A DNA stretch of 40,502 nucleotides from Acidobacteriota bacterium (GTDB taxonomy: Bacteria > Acidobacteriota > Holophagae > Thermotomaculales > Thermotomaculaceae): contig JAADGL010000063.1 of the NCBI GenBank assembly GCA_013152385.1, positions 1-40,502 of the forward strand, read 5' to 3'. Below are positions 10,339-27,792 of the stretch, piece by piece. The first letter of the stretch is position 1. Every line of letters starts with the position of its first letter. The position numbers and the translations under genes were made by a program. The notes beneath the pieces are model-generated. The model was given only the letters and a program-made list of their open reading frames with translations. It did no database searches and was not told the origin of the DNA.

Positions 10339-11175
10339 TTACGGCAGTAATTCCCGGATAAACGGCGGGATTGTTAAGGCGTGACGGTGAGTGTCGCCGG
10401 TATAATATTTTAGTTTTCCGGCCAGAGCGGCTGCCCGTTGTACGTTGAAATCCCGGAGAGGGTCCGGCCCTTTGGATGCAAACCCGAAAGACCAGAGTCC
10501 GGTGGGGTAGGTGGGAACAGGGGCAAGGTACATCCGGCTTACCGGAAACACCTGATTCAGTGAGCTGAAAATGTCCCGAATAAGATTTCTGCTCAGCAGC
10601 GGAAATTCGGTCTGGGCAACAAGGATGCCGTTCTCGGTAAGCGCTTCCCGCACTGATGTATAAAAATCACTGTGAAACAGGCCTTCGGCAAAGGCAACAG
10701 GGTCGGTGGAATCTATCAGAATTATATCCCAGGCATTTTTCTGTTCCTGAATGAAGCGGATTCCGTCTGCAATATGGAGGGTGACACGGGGGTCGTCAAA
10801 TCCGCATGCAACAAAAGGCAGGTGTTTTCTGGACATATCCACCACCATTTTGTCGATTTCCACGATGGTAATGTCTTCAACTTCGCTGTGACGGGCAACT
10901 TCACGGATGGTACCGCCGTCCCCACCGCCGATAACCAGAACCCGTTTGGGGCGGGGATGCACGGTCAGCGGCACATGAGCAATCATTTCATGATAGAAGA
11001 ATTCATCCCGCTCGGTAAGCATGACCACATTGTCCAACATCATCAGGCGGCCGAAATCAAAAGTGTCATAGATGTCGCATTTCTGAAACTTACTTTCGGC
11101 GTGATCGAGAATGGTTTTCACGCGGAATGAAATCCGTAGATTTTCCGTTTGATCTTCGGTTACCCAGATGTTCAT
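10339..11175 (-). CDS. speE: Spermidine synthase (polyamine aminopropyltransferase)
   Basis: The enzyme moves the aminopropyl group of decarboxylated S-adenosylmethionine onto putrescine to make spermidine. The 278-residue protein has the family N-terminal beta-domain (MNIWVTEDQTENLRISF), the Rossmann nucleotide loop VLVIGGGDGG (GGGDGG at 83-88), the acidic EID segment after the next strand, and DSTDP near 157, which holds the catalytic Asp and amine-binding region. The ATG at 11175 has AAGGAG 7 nt upstream. It lies 29 nt after speD, which makes its second substrate, so the two form one operon. Nothing in the sequence tells putrescine from other diamines as the acceptor. Confidence 0.95.
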   Translation of the reverse strand: MNIWVTEDQTENLRISFRVKTILDHAESKFQKCDIYDTFDFGRLMMLDNVVMLTERDEFFYHEMIAHVPLTVHPRPKRVLVIGGGDGGTIREVARHSEVEDITIVEIDKMVVDMSRKHLPFVACGFDDPRVTLHIADGIRFIQEQKNAWDIILIDSTDPVAFAEGLFHSDFYTSVREALTENGILVAQTEFPLLSRNLIRDIFSSLNQVFPVSRMYLAPVPTYPTGLWSFGFASKGPDPLRDFNVQRAAALAGKLKYYTGDTHRHALTIPPFIRELLP

Positions 11176-11194: not shown

Positions 11195-11210
11195 GCCTGA
11201 ACTTTCAGGC
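11195..11210 (-). repeat. Hairpin at the speD-speE junction
   Basis: GCCTGAA - CT - TTCAGGC, a perfect 7-base inverted repeat that includes the speD stop codon and ends about 20 nt before the speE start. It could slow ribosomes or protect RNA ends between the two cistrons. A short A-run rather than a T-run follows on the coding strand, so it is not an intrinsic terminator. Confidence 0.4.
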
Positions 11211-11603
11211 TGTTACGGGTTTATGGCGGATTTCTTTGATGTTCTGGTTTACCACCTGTACCTGCCCGCGTTTCAGTTCCATTGTGGAGTGATGTTCACA
11301 GTCCAGTTCTTTTTTCAGGAAGTCAAATGCAATCCAGGGGTCTACGGTATCTCCGCAGGTGAACAAATCCACCGCGGCATACCCGTATTCCGGCCAGGTA
11401 TGGATGGTTAGATGAGATTCGGCAATGATCACTACGCCGGATACGCCATGGGGGCTGAAGTGATGAAAATTGCTTGAAACGATGGTTGCACCGGCCAGTT
11501 CGGCCGCCCGGTTCATTAAATTTCCGATTTTTTCGGGGTTGTTCAGTGTGGTGGGGTTCGCGTTATAAAATTCCACAAGAATGTGGGTGCCCAAAGCTTT
11601 CAA
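11205..11603 (-). CDS. speD: S-adenosylmethionine decarboxylase proenzyme
   Basis: The 132-residue proenzyme self-cleaves to form a pyruvoyl cofactor and decarboxylates S-adenosylmethionine for spermidine synthesis. The residues known from the Thermotoga-type enzyme are all here at the same positions: the cleavage Ser63 in [12 protein letters not shown], His68 and Cys83. The start is TTG at 11603, preceded at 5 nt by AGGAGG; the family opening MKALGTH fixes it. An ATG-AAT-TGA triplet set lies between the ribosome site and the TTG, with its TGA overlapping the start codon. Upstream is a 24-codon leader ORF with a stronger ribosome site. speE follows directly. Confidence 0.95.
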
Positions 11604-11632
11604 TTCATCCTCCTTTTGTTGTTTTCAACAGG

Positions 11633-11707
11633 CTAACGGTTTGAATATTCGCGCTGCAATGCCACGTTTTCACGGTCATTCCATCCGAAAGTTGTGTCGG
11701 ATAGCAT
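11633..11707 (-). CDS. 24-codon leader ORF upstream of speD (putative leader peptide)
   Basis: On the minus strand an AAGGAGGT ribosome site (11718-11711) lies 3 nt before an ATG at 11707, followed by 24 codons and TAG at 11633. The peptide begins MLSDTTFGWND and ends REYSNR. It is too short for ordinary gene calls but has one of the best ribosome sites in the window. It lies wholly in the transcribed leader between the speD promoter and the speD start (gap 29 nt). It has no signal peptide or known domain. By analogy with other polyamine genes controlled by upstream ORFs (E. coli speFL, eukaryotic AMD1) it may couple speD expression to polyamine level. That role is inference; no similarity to those peptides is seen. 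Confidence 0.6.
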   Translation of the reverse strand: MLSDTTFGWNDRENVALQREYSNR

Positions 11708-11744
11708 AAAACCTCCTTCTTTTTTCCCCGTGCGGCTGTTTGTT

Positions 11745-11763
11745 CTGCACACGCAGGGTGCAG
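11745..11763 (-). other. Hairpin in the speD leader RNA
   Basis: CTGCAC and GTGCAG pair perfectly around a 7-nt loop, starting just downstream of the predicted transcription start and about 38 nt before the leader ORF ATG. It is likely the 5' stem of the speD leader. Confidence 0.4.
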
Positions 11764-11768
11764 GCGCT

Positions 11769-11798
11769 ATTTTATTCGACCGGAAAAGCTTCGGTCAA
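11769..11798 (-). promoter_or_regulatory. speD-speE promoter
   Basis: On the minus strand TTGACC (11798-11793) is followed after 18 nt by TAAAAT (11774-11769). A GACCG...CGGTC inverted repeat (11796-11792 and 11782-11778) overlaps the -35 and spacer and could be an operator. Confidence 0.6.
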
Positions 11799-11880
11799 GA
11801 AAAATTTTGTGGTTCCGCAAAGAAATTATTTTCAGACTCCGAACTGTATGGTTCTGACATTTTGAAGCCGGAAAGGCAGA

Positions 11881-11913
11881 CAAAAAAAGCCCGCCGGATA
11901 AACGGCGGGCTTT
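11881..11913 (-). terminator. Intrinsic terminator of groES-groEL
   Basis: Stem AAGCCCGCCG / CGGCGGGCTT (arms 11887-11896 and 11903-11912) with a GATAAA-side loop. On the minus strand a run of seven T follows directly. It lies about 23 nt after the groEL stop. Confidence 0.9.
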
Positions 11914-11935
11914 CGGGATTGACAAACAGAGGGAA

Positions 11936-24899: not shown

Positions 24900-25880
24900 T
24901 TGAAAACAAGAATTACGGAAATGCTGGGAATTCAATTTCCGGTAATTGCGGCGCCGATGTTTCTGGTTTCCAACCCCGAACTGGTTGCGGCGGTTTCCGA
25001 AGCCGGCGGGCTGGGAACGTTTCCGGCGCTGAATTACCGGACACCGGAGCAGTTTGAAGAAGGCCTGAAGCTTGTTCGTTCACTGACGGATAAGCCGTAC
25101 GGAGTAAACATTATTACAAATAAATCAAATATTTATCAGGAACAGCATCTGGAAATCTGTATCCGGCATAAAGTTCCGGTCATCATCACTTCCCTCGGTT
25201 CACCGAAACAGGTTATTGAGAAAGCCCATGAAATCGGAACAAAGGTGTTTTGCGACGTAACAAACCTGGATTATGCAAAAAAGGTAGAGAAACTCGGTGC
25301 AGATGCGGTTGTGGCGGTGGGCTATGGCGCAGGGGGCCATGCGGGGAAAATTGTAGGCAGTGTGCTGGTTCCGTGGCTTGTGGACAATCTGGATATTCCG
25401 GTTATCGCGGCAGGGGGAATTGCCAGCGGAAAAACTCTTTTGTCCGCGCTGGCGTTGGGGGCGGAAGCCGGTTATATGGGAACCCGGTTTATTGCCTGCG
25501 CCGAAACCGCTGTGAACGACGCTTACAAAGACAGTATTCTTGAATCCGGCCCGGAAGATATTATTTTCACCGCGCGGGTGACCGGAACCCATGCAAATTT
25601 TATCAACACGCCGTATCTTGAAAATCTCGGAACGGAACTTGGTTTTTTCGAACGGTTCTGGACACGGTTTTCCTTTACCCGTAAATGGTTTAAGATGTAC
25701 AAGGGCTATCGTGCGATGAAGGGAATGGGAGACTCCGCGTCCGTGAACAAAAAGAAGGCATGGAAAGATGTCTGGTCAGCGGGACAGACTGTTGGCCTGA
25801 TTCACGAAACAAAACCGGCAGCTGAAATATTGGCTGATGTGATTCGGGAATATGAGGCTGCAAAAAAGAAACTGCCGTAA
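24900..25880 (+). CDS. Nitronate monooxygenase-family FMN oxidoreductase
   Basis: This 326-residue TIM-barrel flavoprotein belongs to the nitronate monooxygenase / enoyl-ACP reductase II-like family. The opening TRITEMLGIQFPVIAAPM, the flavin phosphate-binding segments AVGYGAGGHAGK (about residues 140-151) and IPVIAAGGIASGK (about 166-178), and GAEAGYMGTRFIA are typical. Family members oxidise alkyl nitronates or act as NADH:flavin reductases; the substrate here is unknown. The start is taken as TTG at 24900, because the in-frame TTG at 24888 forms part of the ribosome site TTGGAGG. The aspartase gene follows after 28 nt. Confidence 0.85.
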   Translation: MKTRITEMLGIQFPVIAAPMFLVSNPELVAAVSEAGGLGTFPALNYRTPEQFEEGLKLVRSLTDKPYGVNIITNKSNIYQEQHLEICIRHKVPVIITSLGSPKQVIEKAHEIGTKVFCDVTNLDYAKKVEKLGADAVVAVGYGAGGHAGKIVGSVLVPWLVDNLDIPVIAAGGIASGKTLLSALALGAEAGYMGTRFIACAETAVNDAYKDSILESGPEDIIFTARVTGTHANFINTPYLENLGTELGFFERFWTRFSFTRKWFKMYKGYRAMKGMGDSASVNKKKAWKDVWSAGQTVGLIHETKPAAEILADVIREYEAAKKKLP

Positions 25881-25908
25881 GCAGGGTTTCAAAAAAGGAC
25901 TGGCAAAA

Positions 25909-27792
25909 ATGAAAGAAAGAAAAGAGCTGTTGAAAGCGACTGTTCTCTTTGAAAAATTGAATGAAGAGGAACTTGAAAAAATAGCTGCCTGTTTCACCGC
26001 AAAGAAATTCTCTCCGAAAGAAGTTTTGTTTCGGGAACATTCCCCGAGGAACCGCTTCATGGTGGTAATGGAGGGGGAAGTGGAAATCAGTAAGCGGGTA
26101 CATGCCGGAAAAGAGGTTCTGGCTGTGCTGTCCAAAGGAGATTTTCTCGGGGAAGCCATTTTTCTGGACGATACGGTTCATTCTGCCACCGCGACGGCAA
26201 AAACACCGGTCCGTGTGATGCAGCTGACCCGGGAACGGCTTCAAGTCATCCGCAGAGAGAATCCCCGGGTGTATTTTCTGATGGTGGAAGGGATTTCAAA
26301 GTTGTTGAGCCGCCGTCTGGAAAGTTCCAGCAAAAAACTGGTGAATCAGGGCGCGGACTACCATGCGGACGGATTTCGGATGGAACATGACCTGCTGGGG
26401 GAACGGGGGGTTCCCGCCCATGTGTATTACGGGGTTCAGACCCTTCGGGCTGTCGAAAACTTTCCCGTGACCGGTGTTCCCATCAGTCATTATCCCAACC
26501 TGATCAAAGCATTGGCAATGGTCAAAAAAGCCGCCGCTCTGGCAAACTTGAAACTGAAACTGCTGGCGCCTGAAATTGCCGATGCCATTGTCTCAGCATG
26601 TGACGATATAATCGGCGGCGCGTATCACCGGCATTTTGCCGTGGATGTTATTCAGGGCGGTGCCGGAACCTCCACGAATATGAATGCCAACGAAGTGATT
26701 GCCAACCTTGCATTGCAGAAGCTGGGAAAGAAGCCCGGAGAATATGACATCATTCACCCCAACAATCACGTAAACCTTTCCCAGTCCACCAACGACGCTT
26801 ACCCCACGGCATTGAAAATCGGGCTGCTGCTCTCCATTACCAGCCTTTTGGATGCTATGCGGTATTTGAAGTCCGCTTTCAGCAAAAAAGAAAAGGAATT
26901 TCGTTCGGTTATCAAAATGGGGCGTACTCAGCTTCAGGATGCTGTGCCGATGACGTTGGGCCAGGAGTTCGGTGCCTATGCAACTATGCTGGGTGAGGAT
27001 GTCCGGATGCTGAAAAAGGCTGCAAAACTTCTCAATGAAATGAACATGGGAGGTACTGCCATCGGTACCGGCATCAACGCAGATCCGGCTTATGCGAAAC
27101 TCTGCACCGAGGAACTGCGCAACGTCACCGGACTGGAACTGGAATTGTCCGGAAACCTTGTGGAAGCAACACAGGATACCGGTGTGTTTGTGCAGCTCTC
27201 CGGTGTGTTCAAACGAATTTCTGTGAAATTGTCAAAAATCTGCAATGATTTGCGGCTGCTCTCATCCGGCCCCCGGGCCGGGTTCAACGAAATCAACCTT
27301 CCCGCAATGCAGCCCGGTTCCAGCATTATGCCCGGGAAAGTCAACCCGGTGATTCCCGAAGTGGTCAACCAGATTGCTTTTCAGGTCATTGGAAACGATT
27401 TAACCATCACCATGGCGGCGGAAGCGGGACAGCTGGAGCTGAATGTCATGGAACCTATCATTGCGTTTAACCTTTTTCAGTCCATTGACATTATGCGAAA
27501 CGGAATGATGACGCTGGCAGATCGCTGTGTCCTTGGGATTACCGCAAACCGGGAGGTTTGCCGGGGGTATGTGGAAAAAAGCATTGGAATTGTTACTGCG
27601 CTGAATCCGTACATTGGTTATGAAAACTCATCCTCCATTGCCAAGGAAGCGTTGAAAACAGGGCGGTCGGTTTATGAACTGGTACTGGAACGGAATCTGC
27701 TTACAAAAGAGGAAATTGACCGGATTCTGTCTCCGGAGGCGATGCTCCACCCCCGCCGCTGGGCAGATGAGAAAAAGGGGAATGAGCATTGA
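25909..27792 (+). CDS. aspA: Aspartate ammonia-lyase with N-terminal cyclic-nucleotide-binding-like domain
   Basis: Residues 159-627 are a complete aspartase, which splits L-aspartate into fumarate and ammonia: EHDLLGERGVPAHVYYGVQTLR, TSTNMNANEV, HPNNHVNLSQSTND and the catalytic loop GSSIMPGKVNPVIPEVVNQ. The run AAEAGQLELNVMEPII favours aspartase over fumarase. Residues 11-118 are a Crp-type cNMP-binding domain (LFEKLNEEELEKIAACF; VVMEGEVEISK; GDFLGEAIFLDDTVHSATATA). In the phosphate-binding cassette the usual Arg is His91, so cyclic nucleotide binding is uncertain. There is no DNA-binding domain. The ordinary E. coli enzyme (about 478 residues) lacks this extension. The ATG at 25909 has AAAGGA at about 10 nt; a longer frame from 25852 would lie inside the upstream gene. 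Confidence 0.92.
   Translation: MKERKELLKATVLFEKLNEEELEKIAACFTAKKFSPKEVLFREHSPRNRFMVVMEGEVEISKRVHAGKEVLAVLSKGDFLGEAIFLDDTVHSATATAKTPVRVMQLTRERLQVIRRENPRVYFLMVEGISKLLSRRLESSSKKLVNQGADYHADGFRMEHDLLGERGVPAHVYYGVQTLRAVENFPVTGVPISHYPNLIKALAMVKKAAALANLKLKLLAPEIADAIVSACDDIIGGAYHRHFAVDVIQGGAGTSTNMNANEVIANLALQKLGKKPGEYDIIHPNNHVNLSQSTNDAYPTALKIGLLLSITSLLDAMRYLKSAFSKKEKEFRSVIKMGRTQLQDAVPMTLGQEFGAYATMLGEDVRMLKKAAKLLNEMNMGGTAIGTGINADPAYAKLCTEELRNVTGLELELSGNLVEATQDTGVFVQLSGVFKRISVKLSKICNDLRLLSSGPRAGFNEINLPAMQPGSSIMPGKVNPVIPEVVNQIAFQVIGNDLTITMAAEAGQLELNVMEPIIAFNLFQSIDIMRNGMMTLADRCVLGITANREVCRGYVEKSIGIVTALNPYIGYENSSSIAKEALKTGRSVYELVLERNLLTKEEIDRILSPEAMLHPRRWADEKKGNEH

Follow-up and report, generated by a model that had tools for sequence, protein, structure and literature searches.

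Organization of the speD locus

Does the short open reading frame (ORF) lying in front of speD in this Acidobacteriota genome encode a regulatory leader peptide and, if so, how might such a peptide act on the gene that follows? The question has a precedent outside the bacteria, upstream-peptide control of S-adenosylmethionine decarboxylase, the enzyme encoded by speD, being textbook knowledge in animals and plants. Together with SpeE, SpeD produces spermidine. In the window, the whole stretch of 40,502 nucleotides analyzed here, the initial annotation had described a promoter, a hairpin, a Shine-Dalgarno (SD) sequence and a 24-codon ORF upstream of speD, in that order, and each of these elements was recovered where it had been placed. 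The locus comprises the following features, listed in the direction of transcription:

11885-11914, minus strand: intrinsic terminator 3' of groEL, with 12 pairs, 8 of them G-C, and a T tail
11769-11798, minus strand: promoter TTGACC-N18-TAAAAT of the leader-speD-speE unit (TTGACC at 11798-11793, TAAAAT at 11774-11769)
11745-11763, minus strand: 5' leader hairpin CTGCAC-CCTGCGT-GTGCAG, close to the transcription start
11711-11718, minus strand: leader SD sequence AAGGAGGT, of which GGAGG or GAGG is kept in 7/7 loci
11633-11707, minus strand: leader peptide ORF of 24 codons, MLSDTTFGWNDRENVALQREYSNR, with the stop TAG at 11635-11633 and C as the next base
11609-11614, minus strand: speD SD sequence AGGAGG, 18 nt past the leader stop
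11205-11603, minus strand: speD, S-adenosylmethionine decarboxylase of the Bacillus type, 132 aa, TTG start at 11603 (PF02675, TIGR03330)
10339-11175, minus strand: speE, spermidine synthase (curated model NF002010), found after speD in 7/7 loci

The promoter is sigma-70-like, with 10 of 12 consensus matches where 0.2 such sites are expected in shuffles, and the other speD-bearing genome of the genus (G001) carries TTGACC-N18-TAGAAT at the equivalent place. With the terminator of groEL on one side and a promoter of its own, leader-speD-speE constitutes a separate transcription unit in the window. An Rfam scan of the window at gathering thresholds returned a tRNA as the sole match, the leader matching no Rfam family or riboswitch. 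Elsewhere in the window, positions 25852-27792 of the plus strand encode a 646-aa protein in which a CRP-like cyclic-nucleotide-binding domain at the N-terminus is followed by a complete aspartate ammonia-lyase; such a combination is unusual and suggests a ligand-regulated aspartase.

Distribution of the leader

An SD-led ORF occupies the equivalent place in 7/7 speD-bearing genomes of the window's family, a conservation sample of seven partly related sequences from two genera, and is missing from both family genomes that are without speD and true speE. Searched against the nine family genomes, a profile of the leader peptide finds exactly the seven speD-linked places (E 1e-7 to 1e-22), every copy lying at speD and the two genomes that lack speD giving nothing significant. 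The same profile detects no leader homologue in the 84 remaining class genomes; the exact C-terminal pattern was not found in the other genomes of the phylum that were searched, and 0/80 speD loci from other phyla have a homologous leader upstream of speD.

The genes upstream of the leader, with families assigned by reading translated sequences, vary between genomes and include groEL in the window and, elsewhere, divergent fumarase-like or GcvT-like genes, a radical-SAM-like gene and an ATPase gene, whereas the order leader-speD-speE is constant across loci, which indicates that the leader travels with speD. The two family genomes without speD and true speE (G002 and G003) are near-complete and belong to the window's own genus, which points to a loss of spermidine synthesis by the SpeD/SpeE route within the genus. 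As a separate observation, several genomes of the deltaproteobacterial type (L035, L061, L077) display an ORF resembling a cupin-domain regulator directly upstream of speD, possibly a protein-based regulator of speD in those genomes.

Sequence conservation and selection

The leader of the second window-genus member reads MLSDSFFGSNDRENVALQRDYSNR, and the leaders of the sister genus comprise 29 codons, as in MVSDLSYDRCVGKKVWGINNFLQRDYTNG. Both genera share an N-terminal M[LV]SD and a C-terminal LQR[DE]Y[ST]N[GR] immediately followed by the stop, with LLR in one member; conservation thus resides mainly at the two ends, the middle being variable. The 15 nt that separate leaders of 24 and 29 codons are a multiple of three and keep the frame, whereas the spacer between leader and speD (15, 16, 29 or 31 nt) varies by other amounts.

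Comparison of the leaders of the window's genome (G000) and G001 gives pS of 0.54 and pN of 0.09 in frame, with P=0.003 in a permutation in which the same substitutions are placed at random and amino-acid changes counted; the other two frames display the reverse pattern. Among the sister-genus pairs, 4/6 reach P<0.01 and the remaining two are non-significant (P=0.40 and 0.12), within-genus tests overall giving P<0.01 in 5/7. Between genera, the last nine codons yield P values of 0.0006 to 0.03, and Arg is retained through different codons (CGC/CGT versus AGA). The initial annotation had named a dominance of synonymous changes in related genomes as the signature to look for, and frameshifts or stops as evidence against the ORF: synonymous changes do dominate, and the ORF is intact in 7/7 speD-bearing relatives. 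Comparative sequence analysis confirms that the leader ORF is real and that its peptide is under purifying selection. ORFs of this kind are also scarce in the home genome, where SD-led ATG mini-ORFs of 10-45 codons outside longer ORFs number two in about 210 kb, one being the leader itself and the other reading as the ribosomal protein gene rpmH; the background rates for mini-ORFs and for stop codons derive from samples of 160-210 kb.

Stop codon context and spacing to speD

All seven leaders end in TAG followed by C. Among sampled genes, TAG accounts for 9.5% of stops in the home genome and 17% in the sister genus, and TAG-C is rare at about 1% (2/148 and 1/115, respectively), a statistic that was found after looking and concerns seven related sequences, and is thus to be read as a clue, not a test. 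A C at position +4 is a documented inefficient termination context in bacteria (PMC5289835). The E. coli leaders speFL and mdtU also stop at TAG, but with T as the next base, and the stop of Salmonella orf34 is UGA (PMC6386406). The leader stop and the core GGAGG of the speD SD sequence are 4-5 nt apart in the sister genus and 19-21 nt apart in the window's genus, and speD itself has a TTG start and a good SD sequence of its own in 7/7 genomes.

RNA structure of the leader region

Of the elements described initially, the 5' leader hairpin stands as a feature of the window but not as a conserved one: the hairpin of G001 differs (TGCGC-TTT-GCGCG) and the leaders of the sister genus lack one, the structure being probably mRNA-stabilising or incidental. 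A further 6-bp hairpin, ATCCGA/TCGGAT, lies within leader codons 2-9 (about 11702-11682, minus strand); it is kept with a G-U pair in G001 (ATCCGA/TTGGAT) and is absent from the sister genus.

A conserved RNA structure was considered and rejected: the RNAalifold consensus, computed from an alignment whose codon register is lost in part, reaches -2.5 kcal/mol, and the structures predicted for individual leaders differ between species. Around the leader stop and the speD start, dinucleotide shuffles fold at least as well as the native sequences (z 0.3 to 2.0), and the fold of the whole leader in the window, with z=-1.67, is not convincing; the prediction for G000 has the speD start paired (0.97) and the speD SD sequence partly paired (0.59). 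Since no conserved RNA structure was found, the peptide is the conserved element. There is no terminator-like site on the minus strand between leader and speD. Two classical schemes were likewise discarded, (i) a trp-type transcription attenuator, given the lack of a regulatory codon run and of a terminator/antiterminator, and (ii) simple codon-starvation attenuation, given the lack of a run of Met or other codons.

Comparison with known leader peptides

The initial annotation had seen no similarity to known leader peptides, and this holds for SpeFL (PF10940), to which the leader is unrelated by profile and by pairwise score. Three leader variants remained without a Pfam hit at thresholds up to E=10, whereas E. 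coli SpeFL matches PF10940 with E=4e-5; pairwise scores are not above those of shuffles (P 0.94 and 0.83), the HIRRxxH sensor is absent, and the downstream genes are speD and speE, not speF. MdtU was rejected on similar grounds (P 0.96 and 0.12 versus shuffles; speD downstream, not mdtJI). The sister-genus leader resembles TnaC (P 0.03) and MAGDIS, the peptide of the mammalian AMD1 upstream ORF (uORF; P 0.01), in a set of eight comparisons, resemblances attributed to chance, neither being seen with the leader of the window itself. With the ORF intact in all seven genomes, synonymous changes dominant and the sequence unlike SpeFL, a regulatory leader peptide is well supported; a short SD-led ORF, a conserved peptide and a fixed place before one operon, as expected of bacterial regulatory leader peptides, are all found here.

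Functional parallels with these systems are partial. SpeFL/orf34 is likewise the leader of a bacterial polyamine gene, with a C-terminal part near the stop and, in E. coli, a TAG stop, and SpeFL inhibits RF1, ornithine being the signal on which it blocks release (PMC8429421); however, it is a 34-aa ornithine sensor with HIRRxxH that activates speF via Rho and an RNA structure spanning hundreds of nt, whereas here the target, speD, begins 15-31 nt past the leader stop and conserved structure is lacking. MdtU, from E. coli mdtUJI, is a spermidine-linked bacterial uORF conserved mainly at its C-terminus and ending in TAG, and it makes an exporter inducible by spermidine (PMC7815308), but it precedes that exporter with its stop 106 nt upstream, is Rho-dependent and induces. 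TnaC, from the E. coli tna operon, belongs to the 24-residue class and is a ligand-dependent termination-arrest leader (PMC8429421), yet it senses tryptophan, inhibits RF2 and has a Rho-based readout, no homology being shown here. At AMD1, when spermidine is elevated, ribosomes pause at the MAGDIS stop codon and initiation is blocked (PMC13025110, PMC4505036). The leader shares with it a short conserved-peptide ORF in the 5' leader of an S-adenosylmethionine decarboxylase gene and a proposed action at the stop that would block downstream initiation; it differs in that MAGDIS relies on eukaryotic scanning, has six residues and no homology to the leader, its polyamine dependence being shown where that of the leader is inferred.

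The leaders end in EYSNR or DYTNG, E. coli SpeFL in HFFNAR (L130:2719-2823) and MdtU in HWRNAL (L131:2109-2210), a common ending of the form [HDE]-aromatic-x-Asn-(Ala)-x followed by TAG, although the overall similarity is not significant; the shared ending possibly reflects convergence on RF1 inhibition, or chance.

Proposed mechanism and alternatives

The initial annotation had proposed that the leader senses polyamines or S-adenosylmethionine (SAM) by ribosome stalling, which is plausible from its position and by analogy. The reading favored here, held tentatively at a probability of about 0.45, is a cis-acting, polyamine-linked leader peptide whose arrest at the stop limits speD initiation. 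The mechanism would comprise (i) translation of the leader from its strong SD sequence; (ii) a ribosome at UAG-C in which LQR[DE]Y[ST]N[GR] would adjoin the peptidyl transferase centre, with M[LV]SD deeper in the tunnel; (iii) a slowing of RF1-dependent release by the nascent peptide, most likely with a polyamine; (iv) a stop-parked ribosome that would cover the speD SD sequence in the sister genus or abut the initiation site in the window's genus; and (v) less speD initiation when the ligand is abundant. Pointing to such slowed termination are the strong SD sequence of the leader, selection on the peptide chiefly towards its C-terminus, the weak RF1-type stop and its short distance from the core of the speD SD sequence. 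The arrest and the repressive direction are inferred, as is the ligand, for which spermidine comes first, followed by SAM or dcSAM, spermidine being the natural feedback signal as the product made by SpeD and SpeE. A more specific version, with the leader as an independent bacterial counterpart of the AMD1 uORF that would sense spermidine at an RF1-decoded weak UAG-C and block speD sterically, with neither Rho nor an RNA switch involved, the ending shared with SpeFL and MdtU being convergent, is a possibility of rather low probability.

At the longer spacing of the window's genus, simple covering of the SD sequence would be only marginal; it is here that the steric-blocking model is least convincing, so that an activating or coupling role is retained as an unlikely but serious alternative. 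Leader translation would then raise expression by delivering ribosomes to speD, through termination-reinitiation at the weak TTG or by opening weak pairing over the speD start, the peptide only tuning termination or release. The 15-31 nt between leader stop and speD start, the TTG in 7/7 genomes and the predicted pairing in G000 are consistent with such a role, and translation of orf34 activates Salmonella SpeF (PMC6386406); however, the good SD sequence of speD in every genome makes coupling unnecessary, the local folds do not exceed shuffles in stability, and pure coupling leaves the selection on the amino acids of both peptide ends unexplained.

The conserved Arg of the C-terminal block and an Asp-Arg pair could serve a stall at an internal codon, not the stop, in response to translation stress or another signal (arginine, ornithine, methionine/SAM status or a ribosome-targeting compound), Arg codons being used in this way in Salmonella orf34 (PMC6386406), but the leader has no diagnostic amino-acid run, its Arg codons are non-consecutive, the window's leader is without an internal Met, and conserved alternative RNA hairpins or a terminator are lacking, all of which leaves this reading with a small probability. 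A small protein acting in trans, for instance a partner or inhibitor of SpeD/SpeE, would also account for a conserved peptide with a strong SD sequence and a fixed operon position; it is distinctly improbable for a product of only 24-29 residues with conserved ends and a variable middle, whose stop context and nearness to the speD SD sequence are conserved too and which has no copy away from speD in the nine family genomes. That the ORF is a chance frame, conserved through recent common descent or on account of the promoter or an RNA structure, as its short length might suggest, is very improbable indeed: frame 0 alone has pS far above pN in most pairs, indels between genera keep to multiples of three within the ORF but spacer lengths do not, and hardly any other SD-led mini-ORF occurs in about 210 kb of the home genome.

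Significance

On the evidence of its sequence and distribution, the leader is a new leader-peptide family, so far restricted to one bacterial family. No bacterial speD leader peptide was found in the open-access literature searched, an absence that is no proof. If arrest of the ribosome at the leader stop is true, nascent-peptide feedback by polyamines on S-adenosylmethionine decarboxylase would have arisen separately in bacteria, and the compact layout of the locus, comprising a peptide, a weak stop and the speD SD sequence within about 30 nt, would offer a simple system for the study of polyamine detection by the ribosome.
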